In this document: positions 2,360-24,327 of the stretch, piece after piece | How the letters are laid out: the number at the start of each line of letters is the position of its first letter | Numbering within the stretch: the stretch's first letter is position 1 | Source: a virus | Strand: one strand, 5' to 3' | DNA length: 39,312 bases | Virus record (IMG/VR): IMGVR_UViG_3300010354_013078 | Location: 1 to 39,312 of that record | Notes under the pieces: generated by a model | What the model was told of the DNA's origin: nothing | Database searches by the model: none | What the model saw: the letters and a program-made list of their open reading frames with translations, nothing else | Program-made: the position numbers and the translations under genes

Positions 2360-2797
2360 CTATCTGCTATCAAGTATTCTTCTGGTCTCTGCAAGGATCT
2401 GAGAAATTCTGCTAGATGTGATCCCAAGAAGTTCTGCGACTTCAGACTTCAGCAAACCAGAAGCTATGTAGGATACGACTAGAGAATGCTTCTCTGGAAG
2501 GTTTAGGCATTCAATAGAAAAATATTCTTGATCCATAATTGCAGGATGATATTTTTCTTCAGGTATCTCTACGCATTCGAACCGATACTTGGAGCGACCG
2601 CTTAGCCTTCGCCATCCGTCTATGGTTCTACGTCTTACTTTTGTAACCATAACATAATCTGGGTCATCTTCATTGCATGATTCCCAGTACGCAATTCTTG
2701 CAATTTGTACAAGATCATCGTATACGTTAGAGAAATGCCATTTTGATACGGCTTTTTTGACGATCATATTCATATGATCTTCTCTAATTGTTTTCAT
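2360..2797 (-). CDS. Small sigma-70-like factor
   Basis: The 145-residue protein has the order of a minimal sigma factor. A region-2-like segment near residues 27-40 (YDDLVQIARIAYWES) resembles the DLVQEG-x-GL core. The C-terminal part (about 100-143) is a region-4 helix-turn-helix with LPEKHSLVVSYI, a KSEVAELLGIT turn and SRISQIL. Region 2.4 is degenerate, so it may be a divergent sigma factor or a sigma-related DNA-binding regulator. A good ribosome site (GGAG) sits nine bases before the ATG. It is the last gene of the minus-strand tRNA unit. A second, canonical sigma gene lies at 15145. Confidence 0.65.
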   Translation of the reverse strand: MKTIREDHMNMIVKKAVSKWHFSNVYDDLVQIARIAYWESCNEDDPDYVMVTKVRRRTIDGWRRLSGRSKYRFECVEIPEEKYHPAIMDQEYFSIECLNLPEKHSLVVSYIASGLLKSEVAELLGITSSRISQILAETRRILDSR

Positions 2798-3356: not shown

Positions 3357-4607
3357 ATGATCTATGTTATTGATACATCAGTGTTTCTGTCCGACCCTAA
3401 GGCTATGGAAAGGCTTAAAGATAAGCACATAGTTATTCCTCTTATAGTTCTTACTGAGCTTGAGGAAAAGAGAAATCACCCAGAACTTGGTTTCCCTGCT
3501 AGACAGTGCCTTAGAGAGTTAGAGCTTCTCAGGAAGAATTCTTCACTCATTGATCCAATCACTAATGATGCAGGTGGTAGTGTAAGGATTGAGATTAATA
3601 ATATCGATAATAGTGATTTACCAAACGCATTCAAAGAAAAGCTAAACGATAATAAGATACTAGCTGTTGCATACAATCTTTCTAAGAATGAAGATGTTAC
3701 GATTCTAACAAAGGATCTACCTCTAAGGCTTAAGGCTTCTGTCATTGGCCTGAACGCTGATGACTATTTCTCAGACCAGTTCAACGATGTGTGGTCCGGT
3801 ATTGAGAAGGTTGAGGTCGATATCGAATCAATCGATAGCCTGTATGCAAATAACAGGACAGCTTGTGAAATCCGACTTCCCCAGAACACTGGTGTCATTG
3901 CCACGAGCGGGACAAGTTCTGCTCTAGCCAAATATAGAAACGGTGAACTGCACCACATCAAGGACAGAAACGTATTTGATGTTCGTGGAAGAAGTGCTGA
4001 ACAGCGTATAGCACTTGATTTTCTAACCGATGATTCTATCCAGATTGTTTCTATGGGTGGCAATGCTGGTACAGGCAAGAGTTTGCTAGCTATCGCTGCT
4101 GGTCTTGAATCTGTTGTAGAAAAACGTTTACACAAGAAGGTCATAATCTTTAGACCTCTTTATGCTGTTGGTGGACAGGATCTTGGTTTTCTCCCTGGTA
4201 CTGCAGAGGAAAAAATGTCCCCTTGGGCAGCAGCAGTCTTCGATGCTCTTGAGGTTTTCTGTGGACCAAACATGATTGACGAGATTATTGAAGATGAGCT
4301 TCTTGAGGTTCTTCCCCTTACGCACATTAGAGGCAGAACACTGTCAGATTCATTTGTGATTATCGATGAAGCTCAGAATCTTGAGAAGATGGTTCTACTT
4401 ACTGCCCTTTCCAGAATGGGTAAGAACAGTAAGGTTGTTATGACGCACGATGTTGCTCAGCGAGACAATCTGAGGGTTGGCAAGTATGATGGAGTTATGT
4501 CAGTTATTTCTTCTCTAAAGAATGAGGAAATCTTTGCACATATCAACCTTGAGAAGTCTGAGAGAAGTCAGATTGCCGAATTAGTGTCCCATTTAATAGA
4601 AACGTAG
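3357..4607 (+). CDS. phoH: PIN-domain PhoH-like ATPase
   Basis: The 416-residue protein joins an N-terminal PIN nuclease domain to a PhoH ATPase, an architecture of the PhoH2/YlaK type. PIN acidic residues are visible at D6, E35-E37, about D98 and D120. The ATPase has Walker A GNAGTGKS at about 235-242, the family segment FRPLYAVGGQDLGFLPG near 265-281, the RGRTL motif and Walker B VIIDEAQ around 334-340. PhoH2 proteins couple ATP-driven RNA unwinding to PIN ribonuclease activity; in phages the gene is common but its role is unsettled. The start is supported by GGGG five bases before the ATG. Confidence 0.92.
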   Translation: MIYVIDTSVFLSDPKAMERLKDKHIVIPLIVLTELEEKRNHPELGFPARQCLRELELLRKNSSLIDPITNDAGGSVRIEINNIDNSDLPNAFKEKLNDNKILAVAYNLSKNEDVTILTKDLPLRLKASVIGLNADDYFSDQFNDVWSGIEKVEVDIESIDSLYANNRTACEIRLPQNTGVIATSGTSSALAKYRNGELHHIKDRNVFDVRGRSAEQRIALDFLTDDSIQIVSMGGNAGTGKSLLAIAAGLESVVEKRLHKKVIIFRPLYAVGGQDLGFLPGTAEEKMSPWAAAVFDALEVFCGPNMIDEIIEDELLEVLPLTHIRGRTLSDSFVIIDEAQNLEKMVLLTALSRMGKNSKVVMTHDVAQRDNLRVGKYDGVMSVISSLKNEEIFAHINLEKSERSQIAELVSHLIET

Positions 4608-4624
4608 TTTCCCGATAAATCATC

Positions 4625-6070
4625 ATGGAACTTTCAGCAAAAAACGTATCAGTTGGCGACCATGTGATGTATGCGGTGCCGAAGCCTCCCCAGGCTACTA
4701 CCTATGCTCATGGAGTTGTTAAGAGCATCAAAACTTCTGGAACTGTAAAAATTGATGGCACAAACGAGTCATTCGAAGCAACAAAAGATAATCCTGTTGC
4801 AACGATAGAAGTTTGGGCTGTCGATGAGGATGGTAATCCAAAGTCAAAGACTGATAGAATTGTTGCTAAGCCAGTTTCAGAACTTCGTGTTTCAAAAGAG
4901 CCTATTGAGCCTGAGTCTGCAGATAGAAACTCTACTCTTAGAGGCATAATGTCAGAGTATAACAAGACTGCTCCAGAGGGCAGAAAAGTTACTATGACTA
5001 CTTTGACAAAAGTTTTTAACAGAGGTGTAGGCGCATATAAGACTAATCCTTCCAGCGTTAGACCGAATGTGGTTAGCGCAGAGCAGTGGGGCTATGGAAG
5101 AGTTAGGGCATTTCTTAAGATGCTAAAAAGCGGTAAGGCTCCAAGAAAACCATTCGATCAGGATCTTCTTCCAAGGGAGCATCCTCTTTCAAGTAAGGCT
5201 AATGAAATGATTCAAGAAGGCGATATCGTCAAGTTTATGATGGAAAATGATTCCATGTTCCATAAGGATATGCCTCCACAGGGTACGCATGAGCATGTTG
5301 GTTCTATTGAGCATGTTATGTATGACGGATACTTTGGTGTTCAGGGTTCAAAGTTTTATGCTCCTGCATCTGTTGAGAATCCAGCAGTTCTTATTAGAAT
5401 TTGGATCGATGATCAGGAAACAGAGTTCATGACTGGTCGTATGGCTAATGAGGTCACCAAGGTTGGTGAACTTGACAACATGGACGATGATGAAGACGGC
5501 AAGCATCATATGGATGAAGAAGATGATGATTACATGGATCAGGCTGCCAGCTATCCAGTCCCTGACCGTGTAAAGAAAAATGCTCAGCGTGGTCTTGAGC
5601 TAAGAAAGAAGTTTGGTAGAGGCGGCACAGATGTTGGCGAGAACACAGCCAGAACTCTAGCTGCCGGTGGTTCGATTGGCATTGAGAAAGTTCGTCATAT
5701 CAACCGTTACTTCCCCCGTCACGCTGGCGACAACCTGAATGATAAGACTTCAAATGGTTGGATTGCTTGGTTGCTTTGGGGTGGAGATGCTGCATGGTCT
5801 TGGACCAACAGAATTGTCCGCAGTTACGAAGCAGAGCAGAAGCGCAACAAAGATGCTGCAAAGGAATTCACTCCAGAAGAGCGAGAGAAGCTTGCCAAAG
5901 AGGGTCTTGCCCTTCCAGATGGTTCATACCCAATCGTAACAATTGGTGACCTAAAGAATGCTATTCAGGCATTTGGTAGAGCAAAAGACAAGCCAGCCGC
6001 AAAGAAGCATATTATCAAGCGTGCAAAGGATCTTAACGCACAGGATATGCTTCCAGACAACTGGATGTAG
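4625..6070 (+). CDS. Two-Tudor-domain phage protein with virion-type C-terminal modules
   Basis: The 481-residue protein has an internal duplication. Residues about 8-88 and 198-270 each read as a small beta-barrel of the hypervirulence/Tudor-like type, with GD-x-V, a HGVVKSI or HVGSIEH strand and a closing NPVATIEVW or NPAVLIRIW. A very acidic linker (about 280-305) follows. Then comes a segment common in phage structural proteins (RGLELRKKFGRGGTDVG ... WIAWLLWGGDAAWSW, about 325-395). The C-terminal module (LPDGSYPIVTIGDLKNAIQAF ... HIIKRAKDL ... LPDNWM) is often fused to phage prohead proteases. The function is unknown; a virion or DNA-binding role is inferred. There is no Shine-Dalgarno site, so coupling to phoH (17 bases away) or a leaderless start is possible. 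Confidence 0.6.
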   Translation: MELSAKNVSVGDHVMYAVPKPPQATTYAHGVVKSIKTSGTVKIDGTNESFEATKDNPVATIEVWAVDEDGNPKSKTDRIVAKPVSELRVSKEPIEPESADRNSTLRGIMSEYNKTAPEGRKVTMTTLTKVFNRGVGAYKTNPSSVRPNVVSAEQWGYGRVRAFLKMLKSGKAPRKPFDQDLLPREHPLSSKANEMIQEGDIVKFMMENDSMFHKDMPPQGTHEHVGSIEHVMYDGYFGVQGSKFYAPASVENPAVLIRIWIDDQETEFMTGRMANEVTKVGELDNMDDDEDGKHHMDEEDDDYMDQAASYPVPDRVKKNAQRGLELRKKFGRGGTDVGENTARTLAAGGSIGIEKVRHINRYFPRHAGDNLNDKTSNGWIAWLLWGGDAAWSWTNRIVRSYEAEQKRNKDAAKEFTPEEREKLAKEGLALPDGSYPIVTIGDLKNAIQAFGRAKDKPAAKKHIIKRAKDLNAQDMLPDNWM

Positions 6071-12919: not shown

Positions 12920-13201
12920 CTATAGATCTTCGTCTTCTTGTTCATCTTCAAGAGTTGAGTGGTGAAGGATCATGTCTCCTTTGTAAGAGACATTAATTGG
13001 TGGTAAGAGAATTTCCAAACTTTCCATAGCAGCTTTTAACATAGTTAAAGCTACCCAAGGTGAACAGTCGCCTAAATGTACTTCTGGGAAAATATTTGGA
13101 TCACTATCATATGTTATAGTGATAATATGTAAACCAGTTCCTAGATCGGAAAGTTCATCAAGTTCGGAATCTTCGGGTTCGTTGTTTTCTTCTGAAGTCA
13201 C
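12920..13201 (-). CDS. Small acidic protein coupled to the phosphoesterase
   Basis: The 93-residue protein has very acidic ends (EENNEPEDSELDELSD at the start, EDEQEDEDL at the end) around a short alpha/beta core (LHIITITYDSDPNIFPEV ... SPWVALTMLKAAMESLEILLP). Its ATG overlaps the phosphoesterase stop (ATGA), so translation is coupled. No family is recognised. Confidence 0.65.
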   Translation of the reverse strand: MTSEENNEPEDSELDELSDLGTGLHIITITYDSDPNIFPEVHLGDCSPWVALTMLKAAMESLEILLPPINVSYKGDMILHHSTLEDEQEDEDL

Positions 13202-14541
13202 AATTCGTCCCCGTTCTTATTTACAGTAGACTCAAATATCTGTCCACTGTAGAAGGCTGATCCTTCTTCTATAAGAACGGGTTCGACGGTTGCTTTTTGA
13301 TCGCCTTCTGGCTGATACCAGACAACGAAGATGCCTTGCTGCCACTTTTCAGTGAAGTTGCCAGCCTGCTTTCCTTTTGAAGTAATACCTGTTTGACCTG
13401 ATGGTAGTACACCATCAATTCTGGCTGTGGTACCCGGTGTTCCAGCAAAGATAGGTCTTGTCCAGCCTCTGCCTCGGATTCTTGAATACACTAGTTCCTG
13501 ACGATGTGTGTGTCCATAGATTGTGGACACTTTCGCATCTGACAAATATTTTGCTGCGGTACTACCGGGTGCAGCAGAAACCTTTGAACCATGCTCAAAT
13601 CGCAGATAGTCATTTACCCAGTATTCACCATCTGGATATGCTTCGACGGACACAACACCATACTCATCAAATCTACATAAGTTAGCGATAGATAATACAG
13701 GCTCTCTTGTGTTAGCTTTTGAAATACCAATTAGACCTGGTACTTTATCTACAATAATTTTGTTCAGACGATCATCATGATTTCCGCTGAGAACAACAAT
13801 TTCACCATTAGGATTGATTTCTCGTTGGATCGCAACTTCTGTACCAAACCTATCAATCTCCAACTGAGTGTTAGATGTATAGCCCGGTGCTGTGCGGTGA
13901 TGAGAGAAAGCACTGAAATCGTGATTGTCTCCAAGGATCACTGTCAGGTCTAGACCATAGGTGCGATCTAGGTATGTTCCGATCTGGTGAGCAACGTTCA
14001 AAGCTGACTCATCATGAGTTGTGGTCATATTTCCATCAACATCACGGTGGTAACCGATCTGTGGATCAGGAATAACAAGACAAACATTCCAGCCATCTGG
14101 CTTTGACTGCTTTCTTACACCCTTAACATTAATCTTGAATGAACCAATATCAGCCTTCTCTGGTGTAGGAAGTGCGGGAAGAAGATCGATATTCCAAGAA
14201 TTGGATTCTTTCTCTACCTGAACATTCTCACCATTAATTTTCTCCCAACCAGGATACTTCTTCTTTGAGTGAGAAAGCTTCACTACACGAGCGACACCAC
14301 TTGCTTCGATCTGCTTAATCGTAGAAGCGATATCTTCTGGTGATTCAGAATCAGTGGTAACGTTAATCTGCTCATTCCAGAATCTTTGTCCATAACGAGC
14401 AATGGTTGTTTCCTTAATAAGAGGTAGGGAGTTCTCCTCTAGGAAAGCAACGATATCTTTAGCACGACCACCAGACTTCCAGATCTGTTCCATCAGATCT
14501 TTTGCTGGATGGTCGGCAACCCCCTTGGGCTTTTGTGCCAT
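13198..14541 (-). CDS. Calcineurin-like metallophosphoesterase with N-terminal extension
   Basis: The 447-residue protein has the metallophosphoesterase motifs in order: D159-P-Q (first metal ligand region), GDNHD at 204-208, GNHD at 253-256, H317 and GHTH at 343-346. These bind two metal ions and hydrolyse phosphoesters. The first 60 residues look like a small helical DNA-binding unit (AKDLMEQIWKSGG ... TTIARYGQRFWNE), joined by a lysine-rich linker. Phage members are often annotated as possible DNA nucleases or phosphatases; the substrate is unknown. GAAAGG sits seven bases before the ATG. Confidence 0.88.
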   Translation of the reverse strand: MAQKPKGVADHPAKDLMEQIWKSGGRAKDIVAFLEENSLPLIKETTIARYGQRFWNEQINVTTDSESPEDIASTIKQIEASGVARVVKLSHSKKKYPGWEKINGENVQVEKESNSWNIDLLPALPTPEKADIGSFKINVKGVRKQSKPDGWNVCLVIPDPQIGYHRDVDGNMTTTHDESALNVAHQIGTYLDRTYGLDLTVILGDNHDFSAFSHHRTAPGYTSNTQLEIDRFGTEVAIQREINPNGEIVVLSGNHDDRLNKIIVDKVPGLIGISKANTREPVLSIANLCRFDEYGVVSVEAYPDGEYWVNDYLRFEHGSKVSAAPGSTAAKYLSDAKVSTIYGHTHRQELVYSRIRGRGWTRPIFAGTPGTTARIDGVLPSGQTGITSKGKQAGNFTEKWQQGIFVVWYQPEGDQKATVEPVLIEEGSAFYSGQIFESTVNKNGDEL

Positions 14542-14573
14542 TGGGAAACCTTTCAGGCGACTGTCGCTACAGT

Positions 14574-14603
14574 ATCTATAACGACAGTTTTGTTAACATA
14601 ATG
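14574..14603. promoter_or_regulatory. Possible overlapping bidirectional promoter
   Basis: On the minus strand, CATTAT (plus 14598-14603) lies 17 bases from TATAGA (plus 14575-14580), placed to transcribe the phosphoesterase. On the plus strand, ATCTAT (14574-14579) lies 17 bases from CATAAT (14597-14602), placed to transcribe the candidate noncoding RNA. The two are mirror images of each other and surround a GTTAAC palindrome. The -35 boxes share four of six bases with the phage motif GTTTAT. Confidence 0.35.
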
Positions 14604-14608
14604 GACCA

Positions 14609-15060
14609 GATCGGTCGCAAATGAAAACAATCCCGATGAACTGCCCAAGGTACACGAGGCAATACATTTGATTATCAAGATAATCATCTGTCGCACTCGA
14701 GTCGCTTCGAGGAGCTTTATCAATATTGAGATTTCGCATAATTGCGACTGGCCGCCCTGGATGTTCGGCTCGCGTTATTACAATCACAGACGATGCCCTA
14801 CAATCTTTGATCGCTTAGAAAATTTCATGCAATTTGAGGGATGCGCCCCATACAGCGCCGCAGGACTGAAGGTGGCCTTAACTCTTCCGGTGGGCAATCC
14901 GTCATCAGTGCCGTCCCGAGCGAAAAGCGGGGAAACTGGTCAAGGAACGTCCGGGCAGTTTCATCTAAGCAGCCTGCTGAGTAGCAATCTGATCTAGTGG
15001 TTGAGATACCATGTAGGTGAAGACACCGACCGTTACAGTTTTTGCTGTTTTCCCTGTGGG
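14609..15060 (+). ncRNA. Candidate large structured noncoding RNA (strand and ends uncertain)
   Basis: The 603-base gap 14542-15144 has no convincing coding frame; the open frames on either strand lack ribosome sites and family features. Bases 14841-14960 are 61 percent G+C by count, far above the surrounding AT-rich genes, as seen for structured RNAs in AT-rich genomes. Visible stems include GATTAT/ATAATC (14670-14685, CAAG loop), CCCG/CGGG (14915-14931), a seven-pair GAAACTG/CAGTTTC (14932-14962), AGC/GCT near 14968-14978 and GGTG/CACC (15016-15027, AAGA loop). A possible promoter lies at 14574-14602. No terminator is clear at the right end. Phage-borne giant RNAs such as GOLLD and ROOL are possible relatives, but I could not match any known consensus. 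Confidence 0.45.
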
Positions 15061-15109
15061 GTGGGGTGGAGTCTGTCTAAACTGAAGAAATAAGTTTTTG
15101 ATTCTTTGT

Positions 15110-15138
15110 GTTTATAGAAATGTTTCTACTACTAAGAT
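15110..15138 (+). promoter_or_regulatory. Phage-type promoter for the sigma gene, predicts leaderless mRNA
   Basis: GTTTAT (15110-15115), 17 bases, then TAAGAT (15133-15138). The sigma-factor ATG is six bases after the -10 box, so transcription should start at or next to the A of the ATG. The same -35, spacing and -10 recur at 18992 and 27757. Confidence 0.7.
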
Positions 15139-15144
15139 ATTTTT

Positions 15145-15885
15145 ATGGATACAGAAAAATTATGGAATCAATACTCAATTGATGGTTCTACTTTTCAAGA
15201 TTTAGTTATTGCATATGAATATATAGTGAAGAGTACCGCCGCTTCAATCTCCAGAAATCTACCTAATCATATAGACTATGATGATCTTGTTTCAGATGGT
15301 TTCATTGGACTGATGGACGCTATAACTAAGTATGATTCATCTTATGGATACAAGTTTGAAACATATGCTTCTTTTAGAATTCGTGGAGAGATACTTGATA
15401 GGCTTCGTCAGTTTGATTGGGCACCACGTTCTTTAAGATCTAAGAATCGTGAAATAGATTTTGCTGCAGAGAAATTGTCCAATGATTTGGGACGAGAACC
15501 TACTGATGAAGAAATTGCAAAAGCACTTGGATGGAATATTAAAGATATCTCCAGAGTTAAGGGTGCTGGTACCTCAGCTTCTATTTTCAATATTGATGAA
15601 GTAGTTAATTCTGACGGTGATTCTTTTAAACTTTCAGATATTATTCCAGATGAATCAAATAACTATCAAGTTTTAGATGAAGAAGATTTACTAATTCTTA
15701 GAGAGAAAATATTTGAATCATTTAAAGATCTTACCAGTCAGCAAAAGACTGTGTTCTTTCTTCATTATATTGAGGGTCTGTCTCTTAAAGAGATTGGTGA
15801 GATGCTTGAGGTAACTGAATCACGAGTTTGTCAGATTCATACGGGGGCGCTAGATTTCATTTGGAAATCCTGTGTTCCGGACTGA
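15145..15885 (+). CDS. RNA polymerase sigma factor of the FliA/WhiG type
   Basis: The 246-residue protein has sigma-70 region 2 at about 23-95 (DYDDLVSDGFIGLMDAI, then YKFETYASFRIRGEILDRLR and the FliA/WhiG-like DWAPRSLR). Region 3 is at about 100-145 (GREPTDEEIAKALG) and region 4 at about 195-240 (LTSQQKTVFFLHYIEGLSLKEIG ... TESRVCQIH). This is the group 3 sigma layout that directs RNA polymerase to alternative promoters. It has no Shine-Dalgarno site, but a promoter ending six bases before the ATG predicts a leaderless message. Sharing that promoter type with the late operon suggests it may control itself and later genes. Confidence 0.93.
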   Translation: MDTEKLWNQYSIDGSTFQDLVIAYEYIVKSTAASISRNLPNHIDYDDLVSDGFIGLMDAITKYDSSYGYKFETYASFRIRGEILDRLRQFDWAPRSLRSKNREIDFAAEKLSNDLGREPTDEEIAKALGWNIKDISRVKGAGTSASIFNIDEVVNSDGDSFKLSDIIPDESNNYQVLDEEDLLILREKIFESFKDLTSQQKTVFFLHYIEGLSLKEIGEMLEVTESRVCQIHTGALDFIWKSCVPD

Positions 15886-20067: not shown

Positions 20068-20771
20068 AACTCTTAATTGGCTGTCCTTACAGTGATAGGT
20101 CTTGGATCATTGATCAGTGGATTGATCATGTCAATCTTGCGTGTTTTAATGCTGGAATAACTGACTTCAGTTTTCTATTTGTCGTTGGTGATGGTAACGA
20201 AAAAGATTTAGAAGATCTATCTAAAGTAGAGAACGCTATTGTAAAAGTTGTTGAAGAAGAATCAAGAACTGATGTTAGAAGATGGAATGATTCAAGATAT
20301 CATCACATGGCATTTCTTAGGAATCAATTGCTTGTCTCTGTGAGAGAGATTTCTCCAGAACTATTCTTAAGCTTGGATTCAGATATTCTTTTGGCGGAAG
20401 ATGCTATCAAGTCAGCAATTTCTGCATTAGCAAGTCATGACTATGCCTGTGCAGTTGGAATGAAGTGCTATATGTCTGAAACTACCAAGGTTCATCCAAG
20501 TATGGGTTATTGGTCAGATGGTGGATTGATTCGCTTCTATCGTAGAGATACTGACGATATTGCAACTGTTGATATTATTATGGCTGCAAAACTAATGACA
20601 CCATTTGCATATAATATTGATTATTCTTACCATAAGAATGGTGAAGATCTTGGATGGTCTTCTAATGTTAGGTCTGCTGGTGGCAAGTTCATTTGGGATG
20701 GCAAAGTTACAAATAAGCATGTCATGAGCAAAAAAATGCTTAATGTAGTTGATAAAAGGTGCGGATTTTGA
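20064..20771 (+). CDS. GT-A-fold glycosyltransferase
   Basis: The 235-residue protein has a Rossmann-like nucleotide-sugar start (KLLIGCPYSDRSWIIDQWIDH), and FLSLDSDILL near 100-109 supplies the D-x-D metal site. Later it has GMKCYMS, MGYWSDGGLIRFYRR and HKNGEDLGWS, resembling acceptor-site segments of inverting GT-A enzymes. It is the first of six such genes in the island. Donor and acceptor are unknown. Confidence 0.75.
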   Translation: MKLLIGCPYSDRSWIIDQWIDHVNLACFNAGITDFSFLFVVGDGNEKDLEDLSKVENAIVKVVEEESRTDVRRWNDSRYHHMAFLRNQLLVSVREISPELFLSLDSDILLAEDAIKSAISALASHDYACAVGMKCYMSETTKVHPSMGYWSDGGLIRFYRRDTDDIATVDIIMAAKLMTPFAYNIDYSYHKNGEDLGWSSNVRSAGGKFIWDGKVTNKHVMSKKMLNVVDKRCGF

Positions 20772-21541
20772 AAGTAGAAATTGTTGTAATTAACTATAAG
20801 ACATATGACTTGCTTCAAGCATTCATTGATTCATATGAAACTTTTAAGCCAAAAACTGATAGCCATCTAACTATAATTGATGTAGAATCAAGCGAAGATT
20901 TTGATCAATTAAAAATCCCTAAAGATGCTTGGTCGGTAAGAACTGACTGGAACCTTGGGTATGCATTGGCTTGCAATTATGCTGGCTTTAATTCTGATGC
21001 AGACGTATTGGCATTCTTTAATGCTGACACTAGATTTGTCAATGATACTTGTGTAGATTATTGTGTAGAGTATTTGAACTCAAATGAAAACGTTGGCATC
21101 GTTGGTCCTCTGCAATATGATTCAGATTTGAGGGCTACTCATGGTGGAATATTCGGCACTTTGAGCAAGCCACAGCACAATGGCTGGAGATCTCCAAGAC
21201 TTGACGATCTAAGATTTGATCAGAAGGCTGTAACAGTCTCTGGTTCAGCATTTTTTATTCGCAGAGATTTGTGGTCTGAACTTACTAACTGCTCTATTTA
21301 TGCTTCTATGTTTCCTGATACCATCGGTGCATTCCTGCCCACTCAGCATTACTATGAAGAAACTGGATGCGCTTATCATGCTCAGGCTCATGTTAAAGAA
21401 GTTTGGTATCTAGGAAACGCTGAGATGATTCATGAGTGGCATAAGTCTTCTCCTGTTGGCGGAACTGTTGATATGGAGATGGCTAAGGCCAAGGCTATTT
21501 TTGTTGATTTCTGCGAAGCACATGGGATAGATCATGACTAA
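20768..21541 (+). CDS. Family 2 glycosyltransferase (rhamnosyltransferase-like)
   Basis: I choose the TTG at 20768 (AAAAGG eight bases upstream, TTGA overlap with the previous stop), giving 257 residues; a GTG at 20759 is an alternative. The start KVEIVVINYKTYDLLQ, the NLGYALACNYA segment, FFNADTRF as D-x-D-like site and VGIVGPLQYDSD then GSAFFIRRDLW are typical of GT2 rhamnosyltransferase-like enzymes. It probably transfers a sugar within the island's glycan. Confidence 0.85.
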   Translation: MKVEIVVINYKTYDLLQAFIDSYETFKPKTDSHLTIIDVESSEDFDQLKIPKDAWSVRTDWNLGYALACNYAGFNSDADVLAFFNADTRFVNDTCVDYCVEYLNSNENVGIVGPLQYDSDLRATHGGIFGTLSKPQHNGWRSPRLDDLRFDQKAVTVSGSAFFIRRDLWSELTNCSIYASMFPDTIGAFLPTQHYYEETGCAYHAQAHVKEVWYLGNAEMIHEWHKSSPVGGTVDMEMAKAKAIFVDFCEAHGIDHD

Positions 21542-22244
21542 AATTTATGGCCTTATGGTTATTAAAAATGAGGCTGATAGATATCTTAATTCATGTTTGA
21601 AGTGGGCTTCATCTTTCTTAGATGAGATATATGTCCATGATGATAGGTCATCTGATGATTCTGTTTCTATTGCATCTAATTACGCTACAGTCACTGTAAG
21701 ACCAGAGGAGTCTTATTCATTTCTTGATAATGAGTCAGCCTTCCGATCAGAGGCATGGAAGTCATTTGAGGATTTGGCCAGTCCTTCTGAGGACGACTGG
21801 GTGCTTGCATTTGATGCTGATGAATTCCTATATTCACCTTACTCTGTTCGCAATTCACTATTAGAGTGTATTGAATTAGGTGCAAATTCTTTTGTAGTTA
21901 ATTTTCTTGAAGTATTTGGATATGATAGCGATTCGCTTTCGATCAGAGTTGACCCTTATTGGAATAGCATCTGTTCGCCCAGATTTTTCAGGTTCCAGGG
22001 AAACGCTTCCTGGCCTAATTCTGTAATGGGCTGTGGTTCAGAGCCTCTTTATGCCCGTTCGAATCCTGCTATTCAAGATCATGTAACTATGCTTCACTTT
22101 GGATATGCAAAAGAAAAAGATCGTCTAGAAAAATACAATAGATATATTTCTAGACCTGGACATAGTAGTTCTCATATCAAGTCAATTCTTAGTGAAGGAA
22201 AATATGAGCTATATCCTAACGTGGTGGGCTTAGATGTTGATTGA
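21534..22244 (+). CDS. Family 2 glycosyltransferase
   Basis: The 236-residue enzyme has YGLMVIKNEADRYLNSCL, DEIYVHDDRSSDDSV and LAFDADEFL, the pattern of the GT2 (Glyco_tranf_2_4) group. FDADEF is the metal-binding site. A conserved phenylalanine/arginine segment (SPRFFRF) and a late LHFGYAK match the same group. It overlaps both neighbours. Confidence 0.85.
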   Translation: MTKIYGLMVIKNEADRYLNSCLKWASSFLDEIYVHDDRSSDDSVSIASNYATVTVRPEESYSFLDNESAFRSEAWKSFEDLASPSEDDWVLAFDADEFLYSPYSVRNSLLECIELGANSFVVNFLEVFGYDSDSLSIRVDPYWNSICSPRFFRFQGNASWPNSVMGCGSEPLYARSNPAIQDHVTMLHFGYAKEKDRLEKYNRYISRPGHSSSHIKSILSEGKYELYPNVVGLDVD

Positions 22245-22866
22245 TATTGCTGTCGGCACATTTGGTTCAGAAGATTGGGAAAAGAAGAACGCAGCTCTTT
22301 GTGAGCAGATGTCAACTTTGAATTCGGTTAACAGAGTTATTTCAGTGCACTCAACTTCTCTAGAGAAAGCAAGAAACTCTGCTGCAAGAATGTCAAATGC
22401 GGACTACATCATCTTTCTGGATGCCGATGATTTTCTTGACGATAGTTATGTAGAAGTTATGGCTAGAGCAGCTTCTAAGGCGGAGCGTCCAACAATTTTT
22501 AAGCCAATGACTAGAGGATTTTATGAGTCTGGCGATTCTGATCCTGAAGCAATTTTTATACCAAATAGAGATATGTTTACATCTAATAGTTGTGTCATAG
22601 GATCTATGGTATCAAGATTGGATTTTTTAAGTGTTGGTGGATTTAAAGAATATCCAATTTTAGAAGATTGGGAACTTTTCTTAAATCTTATTTGCAATGC
22701 AGATTGCAAGATTAGACCAGTTCGTAATGCTGTATATTGCATTAATGTTAGAAGTGGAAGTAGGAATACTGATCAGTCCCTGCATGGCAAGATATATTCT
22801 GATATAGTAAATCAGTATAGAGATTTCTCAAAATTTGTTAAAGACATTTATTTGGAAGAGATATGA
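22234..22866 (+). CDS. Family 2 glycosyltransferase
   Basis: The 210-residue enzyme has ARNSAARMSNADYIIFLDADDFLDDSYVEV (D-x-D as DAD) and a short C-terminal LEDWELFLNLI segment typical of GT2 acceptor domains. It is at the short end for a GT2 enzyme and lacks a C-terminal extension. It is coupled to both neighbours by overlaps of 11 and four bases. Confidence 0.82.
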   Translation: MLIDIAVGTFGSEDWEKKNAALCEQMSTLNSVNRVISVHSTSLEKARNSAARMSNADYIIFLDADDFLDDSYVEVMARAASKAERPTIFKPMTRGFYESGDSDPEAIFIPNRDMFTSNSCVIGSMVSRLDFLSVGGFKEYPILEDWELFLNLICNADCKIRPVRNAVYCINVRSGSRNTDQSLHGKIYSDIVNQYRDFSKFVKDIYLEEI

Positions 22867-23537
22867 TTTCTTTTATTATTCCTTGGAATGAAAGCTCGGA
22901 TAGCTATAGGTCACAATCCTTTTCTTTGGTCAAGGATTATATAAGCTCGGTTCCTGATTCAGAACTTGTTGTCGGATACGATACGGATAATCCGATGAAC
23001 CGATCCAAGGCTCGCAATAATGCGTTTCTCCAGGCAAAGGGCGATTTTCTTGTTATTCTTGATGCAGATACATATGTATCTATTGATTCTATTTATGATG
23101 CAATTGATATTGTTAGATCAAAAAATACTTGGGTAGTTCCATACCGAGATTATTATAATTTAACACAAGAGTTTACTGATAAAATTTTTAATAATTTTTT
23201 CGATAAAAAAGATTTATCTCTCTTGGAAAAAGAAGAGTTTATTGAATATGAGTTCAAGATTCTTTCTTGGGCTGGAGCACTTGTTCTAACTAGAGATATG
23301 TATAGTGATGCCGGTTTTTATGATGAACGATTCAAGGGTTGGGGCTGGGAAGACGTTGCGTTCAGATTGAAGCTAGATAATACAGTTGGTAAGCATGTTA
23401 GATGTGGCTCTTATATCTCGCATCTATGGCATCCAAGGGGAGATGCGAACTTCAATACAGAACATGAACTTAGAAATAGAAATCTCTTTAACAAAGATTA
23501 CGCTTTGAGATATGGTTGGACAGATGAAAGAATTTAG
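22863..23537 (+). CDS. Family 2 glycosyltransferase with galactosyltransferase-type C-terminus
   Basis: The 224-residue enzyme starts ISFIIPWNESSDSYR and has KARNNAFLQAKGDFLVILDAD (DAD metal site). GFYDERFKGWGWEDVAFRL matches the Glyco_transf_7C segment of galactosyl- and N-acetylgalactosaminyl-transferases, and SHLWHPRG follows. The sugar is probably galactose-type, but this is inference from family. Confidence 0.85.
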   Translation: MISFIIPWNESSDSYRSQSFSLVKDYISSVPDSELVVGYDTDNPMNRSKARNNAFLQAKGDFLVILDADTYVSIDSIYDAIDIVRSKNTWVVPYRDYYNLTQEFTDKIFNNFFDKKDLSLLEKEEFIEYEFKILSWAGALVLTRDMYSDAGFYDERFKGWGWEDVAFRLKLDNTVGKHVRCGSYISHLWHPRGDANFNTEHELRNRNLFNKDYALRYGWTDERI

Positions 23538-24327
23538 TTTTAAAAATCTTGGATTGGCAGGAAGATTAGGCAATCAGTTGTGGCAGATTGGTTGGACTCT
23601 TGGTGAGGCAGCAAGGCTTGGTGGAGCTGGCGTTGTTGTGCCAGATTGGGAGTACCGACCTTTCTTTTCTATTCCAGAAGATCTATTTGCTAAAGCCGAT
23701 GAATTCTCTATTGATGGTGGTTTCGAGTATTATCAAGAGCTTCATTATTGGGATGGGATCAAGGACGATATCTGGTCGATGTTTCAGGCTTCTGAATTAG
23801 CAGCACTTGAGACTTCTCGCTATGTTGGAGATAGAGCTGATCTGATGAGGGAGCATGGATGTTCTGTTCACCACAGGCTTGGTGATTATGTAAATCATCC
23901 AAACCATTTTCCAATTCCTACACCAAAGTATTATAGAGACTCTATGAAAAAGGTTTTGGAAGAAGATCCAGACACAATATTTTATGTGTTTTCAGATTCA
24001 ATCAAACAGGTAATATTTAATTACAATTCAGATGAATTTACTTCAAATCTTTTAGAAGATAAGAAGATTGTTTTCTTTAAGGGAGTTCCAAGGCCAGTAG
24101 AAGTTGTTGATAGAAAAGGTGAGCCATCTGATTGGCTAGATTTATTTAGTATGTCAATGTGCAAAAATCACATCATTGCTAACTCTACATTTTCTTGGTG
24201 GGGCGCGTTTCTTTCAGAATCACGCCATGCGTATTATCCTTCTACTTGGTTTGGTAAAGATCCTGCAGTTAAAAATATTCCTTGGAGAAGGATGATTCCT
24301 TCAGATTGGACTGAGGTGCAATGTTAA
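23524..24327 (+). CDS. GT11 alpha-1,2-fucosyltransferase-like enzyme
   Basis: The 267-residue enzyme has the GT11 motifs: GRLGNQLWQ near 14-22, HHRLGDY (the HxRxGDY donor site) and ANSTFSWWGAFL near the C-terminus. GT11 enzymes transfer L-fucose from GDP-fucose in alpha-1,2 linkage. I prefer the ATG at 23524 (GGA just upstream) over one at 23512. No GDP-fucose synthase is in the window; the GDP-mannose epimerase-like enzyme at 26818 may supply a related GDP-L-sugar. Confidence 0.92.
   Translation: MKEFSFKNLGLAGRLGNQLWQIGWTLGEAARLGGAGVVVPDWEYRPFFSIPEDLFAKADEFSIDGGFEYYQELHYWDGIKDDIWSMFQASELAALETSRYVGDRADLMREHGCSVHHRLGDYVNHPNHFPIPTPKYYRDSMKKVLEEDPDTIFYVFSDSIKQVIFNYNSDEFTSNLLEDKKIVFFKGVPRPVEVVDRKGEPSDWLDLFSMSMCKNHIIANSTFSWWGAFLSESRHAYYPSTWFGKDPAVKNIPWRRMIPSDWTEVQC

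Follow-up and report, generated by a model that had tools for sequence, protein, structure and literature searches.

The gap between a metallophosphoesterase gene and a sigma factor gene in this phage DNA probably encodes a structured noncoding RNA of about 270–290 nt, expressed as its own transcript and belonging to a new family. By comparing sequences among phages we demonstrate a conserved noncoding core, a promoter motif on the plus strand and two covarying hairpins, and it is on this comparative evidence, not on a stem or on folding energy, that we count the finding as real. The window (the whole stretch of DNA analysed) is the 39,312-base IMG/VR virus fragment IMGVR_UViG_3300010354_013078, and we infer an actinobacterial host solely from protein similarity to actinophages; the nearest relatives of its metallophosphoesterase are in Microbacterium and Clavibacter phages. 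The gap (14542–15144) extends for 603 bases from the start of the metallophosphoesterase (14541) to that of the sigma factor (15145), does not adjoin the tRNA genes of the window and is, as the initial annotation held, the longest region without a plausible gene in the list of open reading frames. The 61% G+C given for 14841–14960 was reproduced on recounting (60.8% versus 41.1% for the window), a level reached by 0.5% of 120-base stretches. Elsewhere in the window, a second protein with a weak match to sigma-70 region 4 (2360–2797, minus strand) adjoins two tRNA genes (Asn and Tyr), and five consecutive glycosyltransferase-like genes occupy 20759–24327.

Five other IMG/VR contigs (L002, L003, L005, L006 and L007; L006 is the same contig as L004) have the same gap at the same junction, with the metallophosphoesterase reading leftward and the sigma factor rightward. 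L002 and L003 are near-identical, which gives five distinct sequences among six phages including the window. Three zones emerge from the alignment: some 60 conserved bases adjoining the metallophosphoesterase start, a mostly unalignable and unconserved spacer (about 14606–14776), and the core, which matches the other phages at nhmmer E values of 1e-90 or better in all. Identity to the window over the core is 81–92%, whereas four-fold synonymous sites in the genes for sigma and ribonucleotide reductase are 43–69% identical in the same comparisons; the core is thus under stronger constraint than these sites. Of the interval 14609–15060 originally proposed for the RNA, 14609–14776 is unconserved spacer, and what stands is part of an element that begins at about 14813 and ends at 15075 or a little further on. 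No members beyond the six phages turned up in pattern scans, in a sigma scan based on alignment or in a covariance-model search, and no match to the element was found among 50,697 phages and 72,556 plasmids or in a pattern search of GTDB genomes. The contig of one relative with the sigma gene (L013) ends before reaching the element, and relatives by reductase or sigma gene (L014, L017, L025, L033, L046, L048–L051 and others) gave no core match. Three sets of hits were discarded: a weak L046 match that is the metallophosphoesterase leader, matches of L010 and L061–L064 to DNA patterns that reflect chance only, and a G002 match that sits within a terminase-like coding region.

Several neighbouring and related loci have features of their own. 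Just upstream of the metallophosphoesterase start codon, the minus-strand leader of that gene (14545–14605) contains a conserved inverted repeat, ACTGTCG/CGACAGT in the window and GCGACYGT/ACGGTCGC in L005–L007 and L046, which is possibly an operator or regulatory hairpin. In the more distantly related phage L046, whose sigma factor is 51% identical, the same junction holds a different noncoding gap (1780–2165) with G+C-rich hairpins and no match to the core RNA. L014 has a noncoding gap downstream of its metallophosphoesterase genes (4395–4640); the strong hairpin in it (GGGGGCTGGCAGATTGTGCCAGCCCTC) may be a terminator or belong to a further small RNA. The ribonucleotide reductase genes of L025 (5986–9381) and L007 (4345–7467) carry an in-frame insert near residue 375, comprising in L025 a Pfam intein splicing domain and an HNH endonuclease; the copy in the window is without insert.

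No reading frame is conserved among the homologues. An ATG at 14841 is open for 48 codons in the window, which is what favours an unannotated small protein gene. However, in L005, L006 and L007 this frame ends after four codons, with TAG at codon 5, and one-base indels among the homologues shift every frame, indel lengths not being multiples of three; a coding gene at this ATG was rejected on these grounds, and we give a small protein next to no chance. Conservation without a conserved frame is instead as expected of a structured noncoding RNA.

A promoter scanner returned only one site in the region, a sigma-70-like ATTACA-16-TACAAT on the plus strand (14777–14804), where about one would be expected by chance. 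In all five distinct sequences the two elements occur in the same place and exactly 16 nt apart, with the bases between them unconserved, and because both motif and spacing are conserved in every distinct homologue the candidate rises above chance. Together with an invariant GCTTAG, this promoter suggests an RNA start near 14813, 23–25 bases before the core, and by inference a plus-strand RNA of about 270–290 nt. The 3' end may lie at a weak stem followed by T-rich DNA, comparable weak stems being seen downstream of the core in homologues; a terminator scan of the region found no strong terminator and did not detect this stem.

Because no terminator is clear, read-through into the sigma gene is possible, and one could envision the sigma message as beginning with this RNA, which would then be a leader acting in cis, like a riboswitch or attenuator, and control sigma transcription or translation through its fold. 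Such a leader would suit the position of the core, which is on the same strand as the sigma gene and always directly upstream of it, about 70 nt from core end to ATG with the weak stem and T-rich tract in between. However, these 60–70 nt are poorly conserved, and all six sequences show a separate −10-like TANNNT box 6–7 nt before the sigma ATG and no Shine-Dalgarno sequence. Such a box at this spacing occurs at 6 of 53 gene starts in the window, the sigma gene included. The sigma message is probably leaderless, in which case the main message would not contain this leader, and this signature argues for a separate RNA transcript; we regard a leader as possible, though unlikely.

Evidence that the core acts as RNA comes from its helices (Table 1). 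An anchored scan looked for 4-bp hairpins shared at aligned positions by the five distinct sequences, and the sigma, metallophosphoesterase and reductase genes of these phages were scanned likewise as controls. On the plus strand of the gap, two or more positions varied on both sides in four of 475 columns, representing three helices (P8 is counted twice), versus two in about 6,650 columns for both strands of the coding controls. The clean cases of change on both sides, paired in all five distinct sequences and found alongside these coding-gene controls, are P8 (GTGGT/ACCAT in the window; GTGAT/ATCAT, GTACG/CGTAT and GTGCG/CGCAT in homologues) and P9 (ACAG/CTGT in the window; GCAG/CTGC and GTAG/CTAC in homologues), and both thus undergo compensatory base changes. 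With these hairpins, the conservation across phages, the lack of a conserved reading frame and the conserved promoter, the initial suggestion of a structured noncoding RNA, possibly new, is supported.

Compensatory changes were not demonstrated for P1, P2, P6, P7 or the possible pseudoknot. P1 hardly varies and is weakened in L007; in P6 and P7 the changes are confined to one side, and L007 has one mismatch there. Given this near-invariance or one-sided variation, P1, P2 and P6/P7 are proposals. In P2, L006 has U-A at the pair 14861–14908 where the window has C-G, and in the possible pseudoknot a C to T change in L002 and L003 leaves a U-G pair, the rest being invariant. The seven-pair GAAACTG/CAGTTTC stem (P4, arms at 14932–14938 and 14956–14962) lies where it was originally placed, but taken alone it is not beyond chance, since 43 of 300 shuffles contain as many 7-bp hairpins as the two observed. 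In L005–L007 it becomes GAACTG/CAGTTC, a length change coordinated on both arms, and it competes with an extended P6. Pairing of GAAACTG with 15035–15041 instead was rejected; it fails in L006, where the P9 hairpin persists. In L005 a 14-base insertion between P9 and P10 (2715–2740) forms an extra 6-bp hairpin, TGAAAC-AAT-GTTTCA, found in that phage only.

Folding energy was no better than that of shuffled sequences, and thermodynamic stability was thus set aside as evidence for structure: z was about 0 for 481 nt on either strand, ranged from −1.8 to +1.5 for the core of the five homologues, and was −0.1 with alifold. The hand-drawn fold (−46 kcal/mol) is well above the minimum free energy (−82 kcal/mol), so that P1, P2 and the pseudoknot may be wrongly drawn and the global fold is unsettled. 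The number of pairs on the model-fitted alignment did not exceed that of its shuffles either, because most pairs are invariant and, in this alignment, two sequences have a gap at the most variable P8 pair.

Table 1. Features of the gap and its flanking genes (window coordinates).
Feature	Position	Strand	Remarks
Metallophosphoesterase-like gene	13198–14541	−	Divergent neighbour
−35 element ATTACA of predicted RNA promoter	14777–14782	+	Homologues TTTACA, TTAACA, TTTACG
−10 element TACAAT	14799–14804	+	TANNNT in all: TACACT, TACCTT, TAATCT, TATCTT; bases around it unconserved
Invariant GCTTAG, probable transcription start/RNA 5' end	14813–14818	+	6–8 nt past −10; inferred
Candidate long-range pairing GCTTAG/CTAAGC	14813–14818 with 14965–14970		Invariant on both sides
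Conserved RNA core	14839–15075	+	
P1 closing helix, 5' side, GGAT-g-CGCCCCA	14839–14850	+	Proposed; pairs with 15062–15074
P2 long imperfect hairpin with invariant TCCGGTGGGCAATCCGTCATCA	14855–14914	+	Proposed by RNAalifold
P4 hairpin GAAACTG/CAGTTTC	14932–14962	+	Loop contains AAGGAACGTCCGGG; coordinated length change
Possible pseudoknot strand AACG-tc-CGG in P4 loop	14946–14954	+	Pairs with 15026–15034
P6 (ATCTA/TAGGT) enclosing P7 (14969–14985) and P8	14963–15018	+	alifold
P8 hairpin, 5 bp	14997–15012	+	Three positions vary on both sides, pairing kept everywhere
Possible pseudoknot partner CCG-ac-CGTT	15026–15034	+	
P9 hairpin, 4 bp	15035–15048	+	Two positions vary on both sides, pairing kept everywhere
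P10 short hairpin CCC/GGG	15052–15060	+	Loop length varies, stem invariant
P1 closing helix, 3' side, TGGGGTG-ga-GTCT	15062–15074	+	Proposed (RNAalifold)
AAACT/AGTTT weak stem, then T-rich DNA, possible 3' end	15079–15101	+	Seen in sequence
TAAGAT, −10-like box, probable leaderless start	15133–15138	+	6 nt upstream of sigma ATG
Sigma-70 family factor gene (regions 2, 3 and 4)	15145–15885	+	Downstream neighbour

Alternatively, the constraint could act on DNA: an origin, a packaging site or a protein-binding site would be compatible with the long invariant runs, the unremarkable folding energy and the divergent gene junction. Under such circumstances one would have to account for the changes on both sides of P8 and P9, for changes on one side of P7 and of the possible pseudoknot that leave G-U pairs on the plus strand, and for a promoter motif that points into the element, and we therefore consider a conserved DNA element highly improbable.

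In the explanation that we favour, a separately transcribed structured RNA, transcription from about 14813 would be carried out by the RNA polymerase of the host and its primary sigma factor, and the transcript would fold into a multi-helix domain closed by P1, in which the P4 loop probably pairs as a pseudoknot with the strand immediately preceding P9. It would end near 15080–15100, the downstream sigma factor gene being transcribed apart as a leaderless message. Because of that leaderless signature, the RNA would most likely be trans-acting and form the conserved core of a ribonucleoprotein, in which its invariant loops TCCGGTGGGCAATCC, GAGCGAA and AAGGAACGTCCGGG would form the surface contacting a protein or target.

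Strongly conserved unpaired bases and a possible pseudoknot could also indicate an RNA with catalytic activity, either of a new class or of a highly divergent one, a reduced RNase P-like RNA among the options. A word resembling conserved region I of RNase P RNA had been pointed out, and GAACGTCCGGGC is indeed present at 14945–14956; the 12-base GGAACGTCCGGGC is like conserved region I of class A RNase P RNA (RF00010), but here the word sits in the hairpin loop of 14932–14962 and is altered at one position in L002 and L003 (GTCTGGG). The possible partner, CCGACCGTT, is no conserved region V sequence, and a P4 of RNase P made of regions I and V was rejected. At E≤10 the RF00010 model matched none of eight phage contigs and 11 of 14 control genomes, and the proposed link to RNase P is thus not upheld. 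No ribozyme or intron family of Rfam matched the element, and we consider a catalytic RNA improbable. When all Rfam families were searched at the gathering threshold and at E≤10 there was no match to the element; a mir-375 hit (E 0.02), short, with a shrunken loop and in the unconserved part, was dismissed as chance.

GOLLD and ROOL are structured RNAs of phages and prophages whose functions are poorly understood, and the RNA described here is like GOLLD in being a structured noncoding phage RNA and like ROOL in being a structured RNA of phage or prophage. Many GOLLD members exceed 800 nt, ROOL is 659 nt in a solved example, and both usually occur near tRNA islands (PMC12286853). In contrast, the present RNA would be only about 270–290 nt within a gap of 603 nt in its entirety, is beside a sigma factor gene and not beside tRNA genes, has no Rfam match, and is far smaller than GOLLD and than ROOL (about 600 nt or more), so that the large GOLLD- or ROOL-like RNA first suggested is not supported. 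The Ms1 and 6S-type RNAs of Actinobacteria are small and structured, as is the RNA here with its sigma gene neighbour; RNA polymerase-binding RNAs such as Ms1 occur in actinobacteria (PMC4191392, PMC9130861). These Ms1-type RNAs and the constant sigma factor neighbour make host RNA polymerase the first candidate partner, and a doubtful guess, from position only, would be that the RNA binds this enzyme and helps the switch from host to phage sigma factor. A further speculative and improbable reading would be that a single group of actinophage-like viruses has a ribonucleoprotein or catalytic RNA of a new class, which targets transcription or RNA processing of the host while the switch to the phage sigma factor takes place. 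The Rfam 6S model gave no match to the element, and the fold proposed here branches and may contain a pseudoknot, whereas 6S is a long bulged hairpin. Should the RNA cooperate with the sigma factor next to it, it would be an example of phage RNA involved in taking over transcription; at minimum, it would be a new RNA family left blank by annotation pipelines, and the structured RNAs of phages, represented by GOLLD and ROOL, would gain a compact member with a defined promoter, defined neighbours and small size.
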